Shown here: positions 16,374 through 25,739 of the stretch, in pieces
How positions within the stretch are numbered: position 1 is the first letter of the stretch
Layout of the letters: each line of letters starts with the position of its first letter
Source of the DNA: Desulfotignum sp.
Lineage (GTDB): Bacteria > Desulfobacterota > Desulfobacteria > Desulfobacterales > Desulfobacteraceae
Direction: 5' to 3'
Assembly (NCBI GenBank): GCA_011390635.1
Contig: JAABSA010000039.1
Span: 1 to 33,356 of the forward strand
DNA: 33,356 nucleotides
Notes under the pieces: model-generated
Databases searched by the model: none
What the model was told of the DNA's origin: nothing
The model's input: the letters and a program-made list of their open reading frames with translations, nothing else
Program-made: the position numbers and the translations under genes

Positions 16374-16458
16374 GCCGAAGTGGTGGAATAGGTAGACACG
16401 CACGCTTGAGGGGCGTGTGGGGAGACCCGTGGGAGTTCAAATCTCCCCTTCGGCACCA
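16374..16458 (+). tRNA. tRNA-Leu (anticodon GAG)
   Basis: A class II tRNA with a full cloverleaf. The acceptor stem GCCGAAG pairs with CTTCGGC, the anticodon stem CACGC/GCGTG encloses loop TTGAGGG with anticodon GAG at 16408-16410, a long variable arm has stem GGG/CCC, and the T arm is GGGAG-TTCAAAT-CTCCC. The 3' CCA is encoded. It reads CUC and CUU Leu codons. Confidence 0.97.
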
Positions 16459-16467
16459 TTACAATAC

Positions 16468-16506
16468 AGCCATGGGCAGAAATGTTCATGGCTTTTTTAT
16501 TTTTTC
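16468..16506 (+). terminator. Rho-independent terminator after tRNA-Leu
   Basis: AGCCATG (16468-16474) and CATGGCT (16487-16493) form a seven-pair stem with a 12-base loop, followed by an almost unbroken T-tract (TTTTTATTTTTT). It ends the gap-tpiA-secG-tRNA unit, ten bases before the start of the next small gene. Confidence 0.85.
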
Positions 16507-16515
16507 AGGTACAGC

Positions 16516-16698
16516 ATGCCCGATGATTTCAGAAGAAACTGCTTTACATGTAAATTCTTCTATGTAACATGGGATCCGAACCATCCCAATGGCTGCAGAG
16601 CCATGGGATTCAAAACCCGGCAGCTGCCTTCCATGGTTGTCTTTCAGTCCTCAGGTGAGCCCTGCCGGCTGTTTCAGACAAAAAAGAAATCGTCATAA
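16516..16698 (+). CDS. Small four-cysteine protein, probable zinc-binding domain
   Basis: The 60-residue product has Cys at 9, 12, 27 and 50 ([27 protein letters not shown]), a spacing that suits one metal site. I recognise it as a short conserved family seen in Desulfobacterota that is often labelled uracil-DNA glycosylase in databases; it has none of the size or motifs of that enzyme, so the label should not be carried over. ATG 16516 has AGGT six bases upstream. It lies directly after the tRNA terminator and 49 bases before the ClpX-like gene, so it needs read-through or a promoter inside the terminator. Function is unknown. Confidence 0.75.
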
Positions 16699-16711: not shown

Positions 16712-16739
16712 TTGCATATTACCAAACCCGGCTTATATT
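16712..16739 (+). promoter_or_regulatory. Candidate promoter for the clpX-like/ahb operon
   Basis: TTGCAT (16712-16717) and TATATT (16734-16739) are separated by 16 bases. The predicted start point falls within a few bases of the ATG at 16748, and no Shine-Dalgarno is visible between, so the transcript could be leaderless. The match is moderate and untested. Confidence 0.35.
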
Positions 16740-16747
16740 ATTTGATT

Positions 16748-18514
16748 ATGAAAACCAAAAATACAATTAATACACAGGATCCCAAACCATATGCACAGGA
16801 TCCCAAAACAATAGAAAAAGAGCTGGGGGAGTTTCTCAATAAAAAATTCGGCGGAAAGGTCCGGATTATTTCCCCCTCGATCCAACCCGATAAAGATGTC
16901 ATTTCAGGCAAACCGCCCGGCAAAGGCAAAAAAGGGCTGATCAATTTCAACATCAAACCGGCAGAACTCATCGCCTACCTGGACCAGTATGTGGTGCGCC
17001 AGAACAGGGCCAAGTCGGTGCTGTCCACCAAGATCTGCACCCACTTCAACCGCATCCGCCATGAAGAAACCAGCGAGGATAAAGGGACAAAAATCACCGG
17101 CCATATCAAGTCCAATATTTTACTGCTGGGTCCCACCGGCATTGGCAAAACATACCTGATTAAACTGATTGCAAAAAAGATCGGCGTGCCCTTTGTCAAG
17201 GCCGATGCCACAAAATTTTCAGAAACCGGCTATGTGGGCGGTGATGTGGAAGATTTGATCCGGGATCTGGTCAAAGAGGCGGATGATGATATTGCACTGG
17301 CTGAATGCGGCATAGTGTATGTGGATGAGATTGATAAAATAGCAGCCAGTCCCAATGTGATCGGCGCACAGGTTTCCAGGACCGGTGTGCAGCGCGCGTT
17401 GCTAAAACCCATGGAAGAAACCGAAGTGGATCTGAAAGTCCCCCATGACCCGGTTTCCATGATGCAGGAACTGGAAACGTTCCAGAGAACCGGAAAACGA
17501 TCCAGCAGACGGGTCAATACCGGCAATATTCTGTTTATTCTGAGCGGTGCCTTTACCGGTCTTACAGACCTGATCAAACAGCGCTTGTCTCAGCAGACCA
17601 TCGGGTTTGGCTCCAGACTCACCCATACTGGCAATGATATGGATTTGTTAAAACAGACCCGTGCCGAAGACCTGGTAAAATATGGGTTTGAATCTGAATT
17701 CATCGGCCGGGTTCCGGTGCGCTGTATTTTGGATACCCTGGAAGAAAATGACCTGTATGCTATTCTCAAGATGCCCAACAACCCGGTCATTCTCAGCAAG
17801 CGCCTGGATTTTGCCGCCTATGGCATCGACATTGCCTTTGAAGATGAGGCATTGAAAATACTGGCAGGTATGGCCTTTACGGAAAACACCGGTGCCCGGG
17901 GCCTGGTGTCTGTGGTGGAAGATGCCCTGCTCCCCTTTGAAGAAACACTGCCATCCCGAAATATCACCCGGTTTGTCGTAACCAGACAGGTGATAGCAGA
18001 ACCATCCGATGTACTCACGGATCTTTTGGCTGATCAACCTGTCCATGACTGGGCATCTTTGCACCACAAGGCAAGGCAAAAAGAGATTGCGTACATCACC
18101 GACCATATCACGGAAAACTGGAAATCATTGTCCATTCTCCACGGACTCACCCTTTCCCGGATCCGGTGTGATATGGCAGCCCGGTACTATTGCACCCATG
18201 TCATGGAAATAGATGATGCGATCCGGAAAATCAAAAAATTTCATGATACCGTCAAGGAAATGGAGCTGGAAATTTCCAAAAGTGCTGATTTGCAAATTAT
18301 ATTTGAAGAAGATGCCATTGATTTTCTCATTGACCAGTTCATTACGCACGGGGTGTCGTCTGAAGCAATGTTGTCCAAACTTTACAACGATTATTATAAT
18401 GGTTTGAACCTGATCAGAGAAAAAACCGGCAAAAACCGTTTTTTCCTGTCAAAGGCTGATCTTGAAGACAGTGAAACCTATCTTAATAATCTTATCAGGA
18501 AAGAAATCACATGA
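16748..18514 (+). CDS. ClpX-like AAA+ unfoldase, divergent, with C-terminal extension
   Basis: The 588-residue protein carries a ClpX-type AAA+ module: Walker A GPTGIGKT (128-135), the pore loop GYVG (161-164), Walker B VYVDEIDK (190-197), FIGR (R321, Arg finger region) and sensor-2 TGARGL (381-386). It keeps an IGF tripeptide (285-287) at the place where ClpX binds ClpP, so protease partnership is possible. It lacks the four-Cys zinc domain that starts true ClpX; residues 1-70 are instead polar with a conserved-looking IEKELGEFLNKKFGGKVRI. About 170 residues extend beyond the usual end, and 515-556 looks like a second copy of the small-domain segment 361-400. The ATG has no clear Shine-Dalgarno. 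Its TGA overlaps the ahbC ATG, tying it to haem synthesis. Substrate is unknown; mitochondrial ClpX acting on ALA synthase is a suggestive parallel, not evidence. Confidence 0.88.
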   Translation: MKTKNTINTQDPKPYAQDPKTIEKELGEFLNKKFGGKVRIISPSIQPDKDVISGKPPGKGKKGLINFNIKPAELIAYLDQYVVRQNRAKSVLSTKICTHFNRIRHEETSEDKGTKITGHIKSNILLLGPTGIGKTYLIKLIAKKIGVPFVKADATKFSETGYVGGDVEDLIRDLVKEADDDIALAECGIVYVDEIDKIAASPNVIGAQVSRTGVQRALLKPMEETEVDLKVPHDPVSMMQELETFQRTGKRSSRRVNTGNILFILSGAFTGLTDLIKQRLSQQTIGFGSRLTHTGNDMDLLKQTRAEDLVKYGFESEFIGRVPVRCILDTLEENDLYAILKMPNNPVILSKRLDFAAYGIDIAFEDEALKILAGMAFTENTGARGLVSVVEDALLPFEETLPSRNITRFVVTRQVIAEPSDVLTDLLADQPVHDWASLHHKARQKEIAYITDHITENWKSLSILHGLTLSRIRCDMAARYYCTHVMEIDDAIRKIKKFHDTVKEMELEISKSADLQIIFEEDAIDFLIDQFITHGVSSEAMLSKLYNDYYNGLNLIREKTGKNRFFLSKADLEDSETYLNNLIRKEIT

Positions 18515-19698
18515 TTGGAATCTCAAAACTTTACTGTGCCACGGTTGAACCTTCTGACGCACTGCGTTATTCCCGGCATTCAGGACAGCTTCCCTCCCAC
18601 CTGCTCCAGTTTTCCATAGATAAAAAACCGGTGGTGGTCTGGAACATGACCCAGCGGTGCAATTTAAAATGTGTGCACTGCTATGCCAGATCCGAAGATA
18701 TATCCTATGACAATGAACTGACCCATGAACAGGCCCTGGCCATGATTGATGACCTGGCGGATTTCGGGGTGCCGGTGCTGTTGTTTTCCGGCGGAGAACC
18801 CCTGGTGCACCCGCGGCTGGTTGACTATGCCCGGTATGCCGTATCCAAAGGCATGCGGGCTGTCATCTCCACCAACGGAACTCTGATCACCCGGGAAAAG
18901 GCAAAGATCCTCAAAGAGATCGGGCTGTCCTATGTGGGCATCAGCCTGGATGGACTGGAAGAGACCCATGACAAATTCAGAGGCGTCAAAGGATCTTTCA
19001 AAAAAGCTATGCAAGCCATTGAAAACTGCCAGGCCGCCGGTATCAAAGTGGGGTTGCGGTTCACCATAAACAAGCGCAATGTCCAGGATATTCCGGGCAT
19101 TTTTGACCTGCTGGAACAAAAAAATATTCCCCGGGCCTGTTTTTACCATCTGGTGTATTCCGGCAGGGGTTCAGAAATTGCCAAAGAAGACCTAAGCCAT
19201 GAAGAAACCCGGAAGGTGCTGGATCTGATCATGGACAGAACCCGTGACCTGCATGACAGAAACATGCCAAAAGAAATTCTCACCGTGGACAACCATGCGG
19301 ACGGCCCCTATATCTACCAGCGGCTCCTGGATGAAAACCCGGAACGGGCAGCCGAAGTGCTGGCACTTCTGGAAATGAATGAAGGCAACAATTCCGGCCG
19401 GGGCATCGGATGCATTTCCTGGGACGGAGAGGTGTATCCCGACCAGTTCTGGCGGGAAAAATCTCTGGGCAATATCAAGGACCAGCCGTTTTCCAAAATA
19501 TGGACCGATGAATCCAATGAATTTTTAATGAAACTGAAACAAAAAAAGAACCATGTCAAAGGCCGGTGTGCCCGATGCCGGTGGCTGGACATCTGTGCCG
19601 GCAATTTTCGGGCCAGGGCGGAATCGGTGGCAGATGATCCCTGGGATTCTGATCCTGCCTGTTATCTTACAGACGAAGAAATCACAAAGGAGAACTAA
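18511..19698 (+). CDS. ahbC: 12,18-didecarboxysiroheme deacetylase, radical SAM
   Basis: It removes the acetate side chains of 12,18-didecarboxysiroheme to give Fe-coproporphyrin III in the siroheme-dependent haem pathway of sulfate reducers and archaea. The protein has 395 residues. The opening MIGISKLYCATVEPSDALRY and LPSHLLQF are typical of AhbC. The radical-SAM cluster is C50, C54, C57 (CNLKCVHC), with SGGEP for SAM binding. The C-terminal auxiliary-cluster region has GIGCISWDGEVYPDQFW and GRCARCRWLDICAG. It starts in the ATGA overlap with the ClpX-like gene and is followed after one base by hemB. The related d1-haem protein NirJ is the alternative, but the start sequence and partners favour AhbC. 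Confidence 0.93.
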   Translation: MIGISKLYCATVEPSDALRYSRHSGQLPSHLLQFSIDKKPVVVWNMTQRCNLKCVHCYARSEDISYDNELTHEQALAMIDDLADFGVPVLLFSGGEPLVHPRLVDYARYAVSKGMRAVISTNGTLITREKAKILKEIGLSYVGISLDGLEETHDKFRGVKGSFKKAMQAIENCQAAGIKVGLRFTINKRNVQDIPGIFDLLEQKNIPRACFYHLVYSGRGSEIAKEDLSHEETRKVLDLIMDRTRDLHDRNMPKEILTVDNHADGPYIYQRLLDENPERAAEVLALLEMNEGNNSGRGIGCISWDGEVYPDQFWREKSLGNIKDQPFSKIWTDESNEFLMKLKQKKNHVKGRCARCRWLDICAGNFRARAESVADDPWDSDPACYLTDEEITKEN

Positions 19699-19699
19699 G

Positions 19700-20677
19700 A
19701 TGCTGTTTCCGGACTACAGGGGCAGGCGCATGCGGGCCAATGCCAATTTCAGGCGGATGATCAGAGAGACGACAATTTCCAGAGATGATCTGATTCTTCC
19801 CTTGTTTGCCGTGGAAGGCAGCGGGGTAAAAAAACCCATCGACTCCATGCCCGGCCATTTTCAGCTGTCAGGTGATTATATTGTCGACTTGGCAAAACAG
19901 GCAAATGGTGTCGGAATACCGGCCATTATTGTTTTCGGCATTCCAGACAAAAAAGATCCGCTGGCCACCCGGGCCTATGCAAATGACGGTATTGTCCAGA
20001 AAACCGTGGCCCGCATCAAAGAAGCGGTGCCGGACATCAGCGTCATCACCGATGTCTGCCTGTGCGGTTATACGGATCATGGCCATTGCGGGGTGGTGGA
20101 AAACGGGATCATTGAAAATGATGCATCTTTGGACCTGCTGGCAAAAACCGCACTTTCCCATGCCCGGGCCGGGGCAGACATGGTGGCCCCGTCCGACATG
20201 ATGGACGGCCGGGTGACCGAAATCCGCCAGGTTCTGGATGAAGAAGGGTTTGACCGGATTCCCATCATGTCCTATGCGGTAAAATATGCATCCGCATTTT
20301 ACGGCCCGTTCCGCCAGGCGGCAGCATCCGCCCCGCAGTTCGGGGACAGAAAAACATACCAGATGGACCCGGCCAATGCGGTGGAAGCCCTCCGGGAAGC
20401 CACCATGGATATCGAAGAAGGGGCCGACATCATCATGGTCAAACCGGCCCTGGCCTATCTGGATATTATATACCGGCTCAAACAGGAGATAGATCTGCCC
20501 ATTGCAGCCTATAATGTATCAGGAGAATACAGCATCATGAAAGCCGGGGAAATGATGGGGTGGGTGAATGCCGCAGACATGATAATGGAAACCCTGGTTG
20601 CCATAAAAAGGGCCGGTGCCGACATGATACTCACCTATTCCGCCATTGAGGTGGCCAGACAGCTGGAGGAGGCATGA
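19700..20677 (+). CDS. hemB: Delta-aminolevulinic acid dehydratase (porphobilinogen synthase)
   Basis: It joins two 5-aminolevulinate molecules into porphobilinogen, the first common tetrapyrrole step. With ATG 19700 (Shine-Dalgarno AAAGGAGA) the product has 325 residues. The zinc site DVCLCGYTDHGHCG gives C120, C122 and C130, marking a zinc-dependent type. The Schiff-base lysines are K195 (in SYAVKYASAFYGP) and K248 (in IIMVKPAL). A longer upstream frame runs through ahbC and is not used. The TGA overlaps the ahbD ATG. Sitting between ahbC and ahbD, it supports haem and siroheme supply from one operon. Confidence 0.98.
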   Translation: MLFPDYRGRRMRANANFRRMIRETTISRDDLILPLFAVEGSGVKKPIDSMPGHFQLSGDYIVDLAKQANGVGIPAIIVFGIPDKKDPLATRAYANDGIVQKTVARIKEAVPDISVITDVCLCGYTDHGHCGVVENGIIENDASLDLLAKTALSHARAGADMVAPSDMMDGRVTEIRQVLDEEGFDRIPIMSYAVKYASAFYGPFRQAAASAPQFGDRKTYQMDPANAVEALREATMDIEEGADIIMVKPALAYLDIIYRLKQEIDLPIAAYNVSGEYSIMKAGEMMGWVNAADMIMETLVAIKRAGADMILTYSAIEVARQLEEA

Positions 20678-21831
20678 GTCATTCCGGAAGCGGTCACAAC
20701 GCCGACGGGGCCCGCGGCAAAACAAACGTGCACAACAGCCCGACCGGACACAACAACAGGACCGGTAACCACACCGCCGGGGCCGGACATACCCTGCGCC
20801 TCGTGGCATGGGAAACCACACGGCGCTGCAACCTGTCCTGCAAACACTGCCGGGCCGTGGCAGAAGACCATCCGTACGAAAATGAACTGGATACCAAAGA
20901 AGCCTTTACCCTGCTGGACCAGATTCGAGAGGTGGGAAACCCCATCATTATTCTCACCGGGGGAGAACCCCTGCTCAGAGAAGATATTTTTGATATTGCC
21001 GCCTATGGCACCAAACTGGGCCTGCGGATGGTCATGGCACCCAACGGCACCCTGCTCACCCCCGACATTGCAGAAAAACTCAAAGCGTGCGGCATCAAGC
21101 GCATCAGCGTTAGCCTGGATGGTGCTTCCCCCAAAACCCATGACAATTTTCGGGGGCTTTCCAATGCCTTTACCGATGCCATCCGGGGCATTCACTTTGC
21201 CAAAGATGCCGGACTGGAATTTCAGATAAACACCACCATCACCAAAACCAATCTGGCGGAAATTCCCAAAATCCTCGCACTGGCTGAAAATCTGGGAGCG
21301 GTTGCCCACCATATTTTTCTGCTGGTGCCCACGGGCCGGGGAAAATATATCGTGGATTCCGCCATTGATGCCGAGGAATATGAACAGACCCTGAACTGGT
21401 TTTATGACCAGCGCGACAAAACGCCTCTTCAGCTCAAGGCCACCTGTGCCCCCCACTATTACCGGATTTTGCGCCAGCGTGCCCATGCCGAAGGCAAAAA
21501 GATCAGTTTTGAATCCCACGGACTGGATGCCGTCACCAGGGGATGTCTTGCCGGCACCGGTTTCTGCTTCATCTCCCATGTGGGACGGGTCCAGACCTGT
21601 GGATTTCTGGATGTTACCTGCGGGGATATCCGGCAGCAGAGCTTTGCTGATGTATGGGAAAATTCCACGGTATTCAATGAATTGCGCGATTTTTCAAGGC
21701 TGGAAGACAAATGCGGTATCTGTGAATACAAACGGGTGTGCGGCGGATGCCGGGCCAGGGCCTATGAAGCCACAGGCAGTTACCTGGCAGAAGAACCCCT
21801 TTGTTCTTACCAGCCCGCCAAAAAGCCATAA
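20674..21831 (+). CDS. ahbD: Haem synthase AhbD (Fe-coproporphyrin III decarboxylase), radical SAM
   Basis: It converts two propionates of Fe-coproporphyrin III to vinyl groups, giving haem b, the last step of the siroheme route. The protein has 385 residues. The radical-SAM cluster is C52, C56, C59 (CNLSCKHC), with LTGGEPL for SAM. A SPASM-type C-terminus shows GCLAGTGFC, QTCGFLDVTCGD, DKCGICEYKRVCGGCRARAYE. The first 40 residues are rich in Gly, Asn and six His (3, 8, 20, 26, 33, 39), looking disordered and possibly metal- or haem-binding. GGAGGAGG precedes the ATG, which overlaps the hemB stop. AhbA/AhbB and the siroheme genes are not in this window. Confidence 0.93.
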   Translation: MSHSGSGHNADGARGKTNVHNSPTGHNNRTGNHTAGAGHTLRLVAWETTRRCNLSCKHCRAVAEDHPYENELDTKEAFTLLDQIREVGNPIIILTGGEPLLREDIFDIAAYGTKLGLRMVMAPNGTLLTPDIAEKLKACGIKRISVSLDGASPKTHDNFRGLSNAFTDAIRGIHFAKDAGLEFQINTTITKTNLAEIPKILALAENLGAVAHHIFLLVPTGRGKYIVDSAIDAEEYEQTLNWFYDQRDKTPLQLKATCAPHYYRILRQRAHAEGKKISFESHGLDAVTRGCLAGTGFCFISHVGRVQTCGFLDVTCGDIRQQSFADVWENSTVFNELRDFSRLEDKCGICEYKRVCGGCRARAYEATGSYLAEEPLCSYQPAKKP

Positions 21832-22187: not shown

Positions 22188-24278
22188 TCATGCATCTTTG
22201 TCTATGGCATTGAGCACCAGGGTGATGGGCCGGTCTTCTTCTGCTTTGCCGTCAAAACGCACCGGACCGGGTTTACGGTAATGGTCCTCTTCGGGCCCGG
22301 CTGCCATCCATTTTTTGCGCATGGCTTTGTATACCTGGAATGCATTGGAAGAAAGATCCACCATGCTTTTTTCCATGACCAGTTCCAGTCTGCCTTTACG
22401 TTCTTCCAGGTGCATGAGCCTGGCAATGGGAATACCGATGGGCTCCCAGTTTTCAAAGGACTGTTCCAGGTTTTTGATGGCTGCCATCTGGCCGGTCGCC
22501 CCATGGGCCATGAGATGAAAGGCTGTTAATCCCAGGTTATAGGAATAATGGCAGTCAAATCCTGTGGGATCACCCCCTCTGCCGTCATATCCATAAAAAT
22601 GGGTCTGGATTTTAAACCGGGGTTCAGACCGGCGAAATATTTCCGTGACCGGGCCGGGAATCTCATCATCCTTTCCCAGCAATGCTTCACTGACCAGGGC
22701 CTGCTTCAAGGTTTTCAAAGAGATGATCCTGGGTTTCACCAGCAAAAAGACGGCCGACGGATCTGTGAACAAGGCAGCGGCATAGAGATCCGGGTCCAGA
22801 TTTCTGGAGGCCATGAACGACTGGTAGTAGGAACGTGCAATCCCGATTTTATAAATGCCCTGCTCTTTGAGGGCACCCAGGTATTCTGTGACCATATCCA
22901 TGATGATTTTTTCAGTTCTCACCTGGGAAAATTGAAAATTGCCATGAAAGTCGCGTTCCACCAGCAATCCGGCCTGGAAAAATTCCGGAAGCTGGTTGAA
23001 CAACTCATCATCGCGCAGGTTCCATATGGGAAAACCGTTTCTGTCCAGCATCCCTTTGCTGATACGGCGCAGGTAATCCAGTTTTTCGTTCAACGTGGGA
23101 AATGACCGGTGAAAATCCAGGTCATGGATGGTGTTAAAATCTGCGATAATCTTATTGAGCTTGATGATGAACACCTGAATTTCATTAATGGACTCCAGGA
23201 TCCCTTCCGGTATGACCATGACCCCGTAATTTTTGCCGAATGCAGCCCTGCGGACTATGGCATCACAGATAATCCGGGACAGGTGCCGCAGGGTGATGCC
23301 ATAGGCGGTATAGTCGATCTCCCCCGTTTGTTTTGCTTTTTCAAGGCGTTCCTTATCAACATATTCGGCCAGTTCTTCTCCGATGAACACCAGGTTGACA
23401 TGGGTCTGCAAAGCGGTTTCCAGGGCCAGATGGCTGGCCACCCGTCCCATGACTTTACACACATGCCAGTATTTGATATCGGATGCCGCATCTGATGTCA
23501 GGCTGCTGATATTCTGGGAAAAAGCCCGGGCAGCCGAGTGAAATCCAAAGGGAACCGCCAGCAGTTTTGTGCCGTCATCACTTGAAACCTGGATATCACC
23601 GTCAATGGTCTTGGGCACCCCGATCACCCTGATGCCGGCAGCGGTGAAGTGCTGGGCTAAGAATGCGGCGTTGGTGTTGGAATCATCTCCGCCGATGACC
23701 ACCAGGCCCTCCAGATTCAGGGACTGGCAGGTCTTCAGGGCCTGGTTCATTTTTTCGCTGGTGTCAATTTTGGTCCTCCCGGTCTTGATCATGGAAAACC
23801 CGCCCATATTCCGGTGGGCATCCACCAGTTCTTTTGTAATTTCCACATACCGCGATTCAAGCAGCCCGTCCGATCCCAGAATGAATCCATATAACCTGGA
23901 TTCAGGGTTGCAGGCCGTAAGGGCATCAAACAGGCCGGCGATCACATTATGGCCTCCCGGTGCAGGCCCTCCGGAAAAAACCACCCCTATATGCCGTCTT
24001 TTACAAAATGCTTTTTTTTGTGCCATTGATGCATCTGATTTTTCTATCACCTTGTGCACGCAATTATTGATGATGTCGGGCAAAATTCTTTTGGCCTCCC
24101 TGTTCATGCCGAACCTGTATTGTGGCTGTTCAGACAACTGGGTGCACTTTGCATCAAAAATCTTGATACGTTTGGGAACAAATTGTTGCCTTTCAATGGC
24201 TTCCGGACTGGCACTTGCGGTAATTTTGTCTGTAATCGGATGATTCAACACCGTTTTGCGCACCTCTTTTGCGCCCAT
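22188..24278 (-). CDS. pfp: PPi-dependent 6-phosphofructokinase, long form
   Basis: It phosphorylates fructose 6-phosphate with pyrophosphate, a reversible step usable in both glycolysis and gluconeogenesis. At 696 residues it belongs to the long PFP group related to plant enzymes. Motifs: FSGGPAPGGHNVIAG (102-116), GSDGL, GGDDS at 196-200 (the second Asp is the mark of PPi use rather than ATP) and PKTIDGD at 222-228. About 95 N-terminal residues precede the catalytic core. ATG 24278 is preferred (AGGAG upstream) over a GTG two codons before. The next gene on the same strand, a diguanylate cyclase, ends 48 bases upstream, so they may be cotranscribed. Confidence 0.93.
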   Translation of the reverse strand: MGAKEVRKTVLNHPITDKITASASPEAIERQQFVPKRIKIFDAKCTQLSEQPQYRFGMNREAKRILPDIINNCVHKVIEKSDASMAQKKAFCKRRHIGVVFSGGPAPGGHNVIAGLFDALTACNPESRLYGFILGSDGLLESRYVEITKELVDAHRNMGGFSMIKTGRTKIDTSEKMNQALKTCQSLNLEGLVVIGGDDSNTNAAFLAQHFTAAGIRVIGVPKTIDGDIQVSSDDGTKLLAVPFGFHSAARAFSQNISSLTSDAASDIKYWHVCKVMGRVASHLALETALQTHVNLVFIGEELAEYVDKERLEKAKQTGEIDYTAYGITLRHLSRIICDAIVRRAAFGKNYGVMVIPEGILESINEIQVFIIKLNKIIADFNTIHDLDFHRSFPTLNEKLDYLRRISKGMLDRNGFPIWNLRDDELFNQLPEFFQAGLLVERDFHGNFQFSQVRTEKIIMDMVTEYLGALKEQGIYKIGIARSYYQSFMASRNLDPDLYAAALFTDPSAVFLLVKPRIISLKTLKQALVSEALLGKDDEIPGPVTEIFRRSEPRFKIQTHFYGYDGRGGDPTGFDCHYSYNLGLTAFHLMAHGATGQMAAIKNLEQSFENWEPIGIPIARLMHLEERKGRLELVMEKSMVDLSSNAFQVYKAMRKKWMAAGPEEDHYRKPGPVRFDGKAEEDRPITLVLNAIDKDA

Positions 24279-24326
24279 ACACACTCCTGCAGCTTATTGG
24301 TTTTATGGGTTGTGACAATGTGATAA

Positions 24327-25739
24327 TCAGTACACCTGCACCTGGTTCCGCCCGTTTTCCTTTGCTTTATACATCGCAAGATCAGCTCTTTCAAATAAGC
24401 CTGAATGGGTATCTTCTCCTTGTTTTATCTGGGAAATACCGATACTCACGGTTATCCGCACCGTTTCCTGCCTGTATAAAAATTCTATTTTCTCAATTGT
24501 CTGCCGGATTTTTTCAGCGACATTTCTGGCACCGCGTTCATCTGTCTCAGGCATGATCACCGTGAACTCCTCCCCCCCATAGCGTGCCAGCATATCATTT
24601 TTGCGCAGCAGCGGCATGGTCCGGGCAATGATTTCCTTGAGGCATCGGTCCCCGATGGCATGACCGAACCTGTCATTGATGGTCTTGAAACGATCCGCAT
24701 CCATTATCAAAAGGGAAAACATGGTGCCGTATCGCTTGAACCGCTCCAGTTCATCTGCCATTTTTTTGTCATAGGCCCTGCGGTTATAAGCTCCGGTCAA
24801 CTGGTCCTGGTGCAGTTTTTTCTCCAGTTCTTCAGAATACCGGGTGGCTTCATCCAGTTCCTGCCGCAATTTTGCAAACCCGGTTTTGAATCCATGCTGG
24901 TTCTTCTCTGCAGACCGGCGGATGGACTGGTCTGTCAACTGCTTTTTGGAAAGGGCGTTGTCAATGGACGCCAGGCGCTGGTTGACCTGGCGCTTCAAAT
25001 CCTCCAGACTGTCTGTCACATCTGATGCAGTCTGCAATTGCTGCAGTTCATTACTCAGTATTGTTTCAAACCCAGTGTTGGATGCAACCATGGAATGGGT
25101 ATGTTCATAGGAATCAGCCAGTTTGGTTTCAATTTCAAGGATTTTACCCACAATTTCCCGAATAAAGATGATTACTTTTTCCCGGTCCTGGCTGGTATCG
25201 GAAATATACACAAGCACCAGACTGAAAATGCTTTCCCTGATATCGGAAATATCACTGGTATCATTGGCTCTTGTCAGCATTTCAAGAATATTGTCAAGGC
25301 GGGATACATATTTTTTTTCCAGGCTGGCCCGCAGCTTATTGAGCACGTCGTGGTAATCTTCTTTAAAGGTATCGATAAGATTTTCAGAAGACGGCTTTAA
25401 AAATGAGGACAGTATGCCTTTTTTCTTTTTCACCGGTACAGGCCCGATGTCATCCTGGATCATGGCGGTTTTCAGCTGCTCAAATATATAGGCCATTTTC
25501 TCGAAAGAAGCCCCTTTGGTAAAGGCCTGACCCAGATTCCGGCAGGCCTTTGAAAAGGCGGTATCCCCGGTGCCCACCACATCCAGAACAAGGGGCAGAT
25601 ATTTGCGGTACATGCGCTCGGTACGTTCAAACCGCTCCTCAAGGCTGTCCAGTTCCTTAATCAATTCACTTTTCTGGGATTGCAGTTTTTTGATCTGCTC
25701 CTGCAGCAGGTCATCTTTTTCCTCAGTTGGTGTTTTCAT
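24327..25739 (-). CDS. Soluble diguanylate cyclase (GGDEF) with long helical N-terminus
   Basis: It makes the second messenger c-di-GMP from two GTP. The protein has 470 residues with no membrane segment and no receiver domain. Residues 1-40 are a strong coiled coil (LQEQIKKLQSQKSELIKEL), and 40-310 are mostly helical, of unknown type, ending in another coil before the GGDEF domain at about 312-470. The active site is GGEEF (388-392), and an inhibitory I-site RKND lies at 379-382, five residues before it, so product feedback is expected. It is divergent from ftsY. The sensory input cannot be read from the sequence. Confidence 0.93.
   Translation of the reverse strand: MKTPTEEKDDLLQEQIKKLQSQKSELIKELDSLEERFERTERMYRKYLPLVLDVVGTGDTAFSKACRNLGQAFTKGASFEKMAYIFEQLKTAMIQDDIGPVPVKKKKGILSSFLKPSSENLIDTFKEDYHDVLNKLRASLEKKYVSRLDNILEMLTRANDTSDISDIRESIFSLVLVYISDTSQDREKVIIFIREIVGKILEIETKLADSYEHTHSMVASNTGFETILSNELQQLQTASDVTDSLEDLKRQVNQRLASIDNALSKKQLTDQSIRRSAEKNQHGFKTGFAKLRQELDEATRYSEELEKKLHQDQLTGAYNRRAYDKKMADELERFKRYGTMFSLLIMDADRFKTINDRFGHAIGDRCLKEIIARTMPLLRKNDMLARYGGEEFTVIMPETDERGARNVAEKIRQTIEKIEFLYRQETVRITVSIGISQIKQGEDTHSGLFERADLAMYKAKENGRNQVQVY

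Follow-up and report, generated by a model that had tools for sequence, protein, structure and literature searches.

A ClpX-like unfoldase gene at the head of a siroheme-route haem operon in Desulfotignum and its gene-order link to tetrapyrrole synthesis

Why should a protein unfoldase be encoded at the head of a haem operon? The question is raised by a 33,356-nucleotide stretch of DNA from Desulfotignum sp. (contig JAABSA010000039.1; hereafter the window, to which all positions refer), where four genes follow one another on the forward strand: a gene for a ClpX-like AAA+ unfoldase of 588 amino acids, here called ClpXL (16748–18514), then ahbC (18511–19698), hemB (19700–20677) and ahbD (20674–21831). 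The ClpXL stop and the ahbC start share four bases (ATGA), ahbC and hemB are separated by a single base, and hemB and ahbD overlap by four, an arrangement already given in a preliminary description of this DNA and confirmed by the coordinates. The three enzymes are members of curated families: AhbC, the radical-SAM enzyme 12,18-didecarboxysiroheme deacetylase, scores 729.7 bits against a cut-off of 650 (TIGR04546); HemB, porphobilinogen synthase, scores 484.1 against 297 (NF006762; also PF00490); and AhbD, the radical-SAM haem b synthase, scores 552.2 against 500 (TIGR04545). AhbD and the siroheme route are described from archaea and sulfate reducers (PMC11306076).

The gene-order link between ClpXL and ahbC

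The link between ClpXL and ahbC in gene order is broad, real and retained. We surveyed genomes by family codes, taking the places of matches from among the matches listed, best scores first. Within the family, Desulfobacteraceae, ClpXL was placed in 76 genomes, ahbC in 76 and both in 73, all 73 with the pair side by side; this count omits two genomes (G018, G071) that have matches to the C-terminal extension of ClpXL without listed places. The ATGA overlap is present in 30 of 30 family loci inspected. In the rest of the order, 76 ClpXL genomes had listed places, of which we tested 67, plus 13 genomes without a match: 58 of the 67 have ahbC, and in 54 it is adjacent to ClpXL. Among the 13 ClpXL genomes not scored as adjacent, six carry hemB directly behind ClpXL (L093–L098), one has ahbC split over two reading frames (L105), in two the contig ends before the second gene is reached (G355, G097), L106 stops at a contig end and two are unlinked (L089, L099). 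L099 was labelled as a contig end in the tree described below; a ParA-like fragment lies ∼0.6 kb behind its ClpXL gene, and unlinked is the better label. The last of the 13 (L087, L088) has only a truncated copy of ahbC (241 aa) next to ClpXL, with an intact ahbC accompanied by hemB elsewhere, as though ahbC had moved off and left a remnant.

Outside the order, where 68 ClpXL genomes (one of them, G091, belonging to the order after all) were tested along with 12 without ClpXL, ahbC occurs in 56, adjacent to ClpXL in 44 and apart in 12, and is absent from the remaining 12; the gaps between adjacent ClpXL and ahbC profile matches reach 847 b. Desulfobacteraceae belongs to the Thermodesulfobacteriota, and in an even sample of 395 genomes of this phylum both genes occur in 123, ClpXL alone in 52, ahbC alone in 67 and neither in 153. 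Fisher's test on this table gives an odds ratio of 5.4 (p = 2.6e-15), a test that ignores kinship and is not taken as proof. Both genes could be placed in 117 of the 123 genomes (six could not), and the two are linked in 85 of these, from 25 family codes, and apart in 32, from 12 codes, with two codes in both groups. Reading the upstream stretches of particular families gave linked genes in seven of eight cases for f86 and two of two for f99, and unlinked genes in three for f125 and one for f105. The pairing is therefore found well beyond one species, and the ClpXL family is not strewn over unrelated neighbourhoods without an Ahb connection, either of which would have told against the coupling of a ClpX-like gene to the siroheme-route genes put forward in the preliminary description.

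To characterize the link at greater distance, we compared 20 loci from 19 families outside Desulfobacteraceae, chosen because they are linked. The upstream neighbour differs from locus to locus and the order ClpXL–ahbC is constant. The gap between the two ranges from −4 to 772 b and is −4 in five of the 20, so that of the stop/start overlap, read earlier as translational coupling, the part that stands is its fixation within the family; outside it, most linked loci have other spacings. Where the gap is larger, it is occupied by a receiver-domain gene (L128, L129) or, at L132, by one of FKBP type. Directly behind ahbC, hemB was called in 10 of the 20 loci, a few of which end early; at L131 and L135 it had been missed by the gene caller and was recovered by direct search. 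Receiver-domain genes encoding 118–135 aa were seen between ClpXL and either ahbC or hemB at L113, L115, L128 and L129 (Pfam on L113 and L128); a response regulator, RssB, is known as a ClpXP adaptor (PMC7226468).

Could two genes simply have stayed side by side with no functional relation, as an ancestral order that decays slowly? The family data by themselves would allow it, since synteny there extends over the whole rpoN–ahbD block, some ten genes long, and the context of ClpXL is strongly clustered on the ClpXL tree. However, the pair persists at loci whose remaining neighbours differ, the depth outside the family, from class to phylum, is large, and the four-base overlap recurs in a quarter of the outside loci compared. 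Within the family itself, one genus (L038) retains the small Cys-containing open reading frame described below together with ClpXL, ahbC, hemB and ahbD, and the other genes of the block were not found there by the same search. We regard mere slow decay as very unlikely.

The tree itself is a quick one, with 63 rows picked partly by context, good support for 19 of 60 inner branches and two long ClpXL branches. On it the ahbC label changes nine times, against 21.4 in shuffles, the hemB label four times and the DnaJ label twice; scored simply as tetrapyrrole versus other context, there are four changes. This fits, and does not prove, an old tetrapyrrole link that a few lineages have since lost or replaced by another, gain and loss being indistinguishable on this tree.

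We say tetrapyrrole rather than Ahb because ClpXL often precedes hemB where ahbC is absent, which makes tetrapyrrole synthesis the better description of the link. Specifically, we took the 69 genomes in which ahbC is absent or elsewhere (43 of the 52 with ClpXL only, nine having no listed place, plus 26 unlinked ones): hemB lies behind ClpXL in 12, from five family codes (f100, f118, f124, f135 and f144), elsewhere in 51, and was not found in six. Conversely, ClpXL-free genomes keep the same three-gene order, ahbC–hemB–ahbD, at six loci (L161–L166). Across the order, a CBS-domain protein of ∼200 aa is repeatedly encoded after hemB or ahbD, forming a cluster of 12 (L093, L144–L146 and others; Pfam on L093).

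ClpXL as a second ClpX-type unfoldase

The ClpXL family is, judged by sequence, a distinct variant of ClpX that coexists with the canonical protein. ClpXL scores 312.9 bits against the ClpX model NF003745 (cut-off 359) and 286.5 bits against TIGR00382 (cut-off 370.75), and four diverse members of the family likewise fall below both cut-offs. The canonical ClpX that accompanies it lies on another contig of the genome (C24), scores 641 bits and is 41% identical to ClpXL over the core. Of 42 genomes examined, 41 have a canonical ClpX above the cut-off; all 38 genomes picked for ClpXL show a separate ClpXL band at 276–317 bits (cut-off 370.75), and each of four genomes picked as ClpXL-free has one ClpX match and no such band. 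ClpXL is also not HslU: this related AAA+ unfoldase is represented by a separate HslU-like open reading frame of 462 aa on contig C31, and the 157.1 bits of ClpXL against TIGR00390 are far below the cut-off of 362.45. On four contigs from different genomes (G411 C1, G088 C45, G396 C444, G498 C23) we also saw further ClpX paralogues: one above the ClpX cut-off (542 bits) beside the canonical one, and three at 225–250 bits that correspond to neither the canonical protein nor the listed ClpXL.

An alignment of 62 ClpXL sequences separates what is shared with ClpX from what is not. The working parts of the AAA+ core are all retained: the Walker A region (residues 121–137, with GPTGIGKT; 17108–17158), Walker B, the pore-1 loop GYVG (residues 161–164; 17228–17239) and the EFxGR arginine-finger box each occur in 62 of 62 sequences, and the sensor-2 column reads TGAR in every one. 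The column of the IGF loop, the ClpP-docking motif of ClpX (residues 285–287; 17600–17608), holds IGF in 46, MGF in eight, LGF in six and VGF in two. What differs from ClpX is the N-terminal zinc domain (CxxC...CxxC) and the RKH loop, both present in the genome's canonical ClpX and both found in 0 of 62 ClpXL sequences. A longer loop, VPHDPVSMMQELETFQRTGKR in ClpXL (residues 231–251; 17438–17500), takes the place of RKH, and 57 of the 62 sequences show P[HF]D.. there. ClpX selects its substrates with the zinc domain and the RKH loop and docks to ClpP through the IGF loop. A single ClpP was found in 40 of 40 genomes, that of the window included, and it is encoded away from the ClpXL operon.

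The other difference is a C-terminal extension (residues 419–588; 18002–18511) that canonical ClpX does not have and that served as our marker for the family (profile A3). It matched 346 of 389 genomes in a sample of the class (189 of 201 good genomes) and 175 of 395 in that of the phylum (145 of 328 good genomes); a search of plasmids, our sole look beyond the phylum, gave no convincing match. Profile–profile comparison of the extension with ClpXL's own lid domain gives a probability of 96.8 and a pairwise E of 3e-10, and a longer stretch gives 96.4 and 1.1e-9. The extension thus seems to include a diverged second copy of the AAA+ lid (small) domain, at about residues 511–577 (18278–18478). 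Compared alone with solved structures, it gave no convincing match (best E 0.027), and single-sequence AlphaFold models, with a mean pLDDT of 41.8 for the extension (185 aa) and 30.8 for the whole of ClpXL, are too low in confidence to use.

The start of the transcript and the flanking genes

ClpXL is probably the first gene of its transcript, to judge from conservation. A promoter-like pair, TTGCAT – 16 b – TATATT (16712–16739), ends 8 b before the ClpXL ATG, and a comparable pair stands at the same position in the 29 family loci inspected; its conservation is its credential, since the −35 element matches three of six consensus positions and a consensus promoter scan did not list the pair. 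Its position suggests a transcript that would start at the ClpXL gene and be leaderless or nearly so. Further upstream, tRNA-Leu (gag; 16374–16458, forward strand) and a terminator-like hairpin behind it (16468–16493) separate ClpXL from tpiA–secG. The hairpin alone proves little, because the surrounding 7.1-kb region holds 11 terminator-like sites against 9.6 expected in shuffles.

Between tRNA-Leu and ClpXL lies a small Cys-containing open reading frame of 60 aa (16516–16698), for which Pfam and NCBIfam gave no match; it was matched in 18 of 20 family loci compared and stands just upstream of ClpXL in at least 17. On the other side of the operon, on the reverse strand, are genes for a long phosphofructokinase-like protein (698 aa; 22188–24284) and a GGDEF protein (24327–25739), both of which recur behind the operon in several family loci.

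Candidate clients of ClpXL

What, then, might a second ClpX do at this position? The reading we favour, tentatively, is that ClpXL is a specialised, ClpP-capable unfoldase of the ClpX type, some of whose clients would be tetrapyrrole enzymes, with AhbC the likeliest. From its motifs, an ATP-driven ClpXL ring would probably pull polypeptides through its pore and could pass them to the cell's single ClpP. It would recognise a different set of substrates, because the zinc domain and RKH are missing, the loop in the place of RKH is conserved in its own way, and the C-terminal part adds a copy of the lid. The place of the gene suggests as likeliest clients the enzymes encoded on the same transcript, and AhbC before the others: in most lineages ClpXL comes first in an operon with ahbC and often also with hemB and ahbD. 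At a guess, ClpXL might remove or reset a damaged or cofactor-less radical-SAM enzyme, and in this way it may set the flux through the haem branch.

Precedents exist, among them the two named in the preliminary description. Mitochondrial ClpX activates ALA synthase (PMC7077987), so that a ClpX homologue is tied to tetrapyrrole synthesis there as well; the tie of ClpXL, however, is one of gene order alone, and the enzymes concerned are AhbC and HemB, not ALA synthase. Glutamyl-tRNA reductase is a substrate of ClpAP and Lon in Salmonella and of Clp in Arabidopsis (PMC5801465), and AAA+ proteases thus set haem synthesis in these systems too, although the target stands at the start of the pathway. 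Reasoning from gene proximity itself has a parallel in the link between ClpX and trigger factor (PMC7804408). The proteases that act on glutamyl-tRNA reductase are general ones, encoded away from the haem genes. In the open-access literature (subscription journals lie mostly outside this search) we found no paper that joins ClpX with ahbC, ClpX with a hemB operon in sulfate reducers, or a ClpX-like protein with radical SAM; by title, papers retrieved for ClpX and siroheme dealt with other subjects, and the single one for a ClpX paralogue in Desulfobacterota with ribosome rescue.

The activation of ALA synthase proceeds through partial unfolding (PMC7077987), which raises the alternative that ClpXL is a non-degrading remodeller, opening its clients just far enough to let a cofactor in or out, such as the iron-sulfur cluster of AhbC or the metal of HemB. 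AhbC, in which a domain search finds radical-SAM and SPASM iron-sulfur domains, would be a suitable client. The docking loop, preserved in one form or another in all 62 sequences, is what one expects of a partner to a protease, yet mitochondrial ClpX also works with ClpP. Nor can such help be essential, since by gene content AhbC works in lineages free of ClpXL. We consider this alternative improbable.

Several observations weigh against tetrapyrrole clients for ClpXL. Gene order by itself shows neither contact nor substrate, and the unbroken adjacency within the family is not a set of independent cases, because the rpoN–ahbD block is syntenic. More than a quarter of the placed phylum genomes with both genes (32 of 117) keep them apart, and neither gene needs the other, as ahbC is missing from 52 genomes with ClpXL, and ClpXL from 67 genomes with ahbC. 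The ends of AhbC show no consistent difference between ClpXL-bearing genomes (18 sequences) and ClpXL-free ones (10 sequences); a degron was considered, and no tail specific to the ClpXL-bearing genomes was seen in this comparison. Finally, nine loci have a DnaJ gene immediately after ClpXL (seven of these DnaJ genes form one cluster, and direct search added two), and in four of the loci a LonB-like protease gene comes next. Such rows of ClpXL, DnaJ and LonB/LonC-like genes were seen at L107, L108, L114 and L116.

These chaperone and protease neighbours would suit a general proteostasis unfoldase, for which a seat in the haem operon would provide suitable expression, for example along with anaerobic respiration, and for which the haem enzymes would not be clients. 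The FKBP-type isomerase between ClpXL and ahbC at L132 and a SurA/PpiD-like gene near ClpXL at L121 are of the same kind; so many genomes with ClpXL and no ahbC would be natural, as would the finding that haem-linked and unlinked members of the family have an identical set of motifs. A position that matters for expression only, however, predicts varying partners, and what recurs is ahbC, in 25 family codes, and hemB in five where ahbC is absent; the ClpXL–ahbC pair is kept while its flanks change, and the four changes between tetrapyrrole and other context on the tree are few, though its rows were partly chosen by context. We rate a purely general role as a serious possibility, one that on balance we doubt.

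For the favoured reading, of partly tetrapyrrole clients, it follows from the DnaJ and LonB-like neighbours in related genomes that ClpXL is probably not exclusive to such clients. The dedication to the Ahb route that had been supposed in the preliminary description is likewise not borne out by occurrence, given the DnaJ loci and the genomes that have just one of the two genes. A bolder version would make ClpXL a dedicated tetrapyrrole unfoldase, an independent bacterial counterpart of mitochondrial ClpX on ALA synthase, which would use the replaced pore-top loop and the duplicated lid to recognise AhbC, and perhaps HemB, would control anaerobic haem synthesis post-translationally with the shared ClpP and would, in some lineages, use the receiver-domain protein as a switchable adaptor. 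Taken whole, this version seems to us unlikely.

A role in haem synthesis is a good and testable hypothesis to which gene order leads. If the functional link is true, the siroheme route would have a built-in control at the level of its proteins, and bacteria would offer a separate, genetically accessible example of the connection between ClpX and haem known from mitochondria. Should there be no link to haem, ClpXL would still be a ClpX paralogue, matched in 175 of the 395 genomes of the phylum sample beside canonical ClpX, that has a distinctive pore-top loop and a duplicated lid and whose substrates are directly testable.

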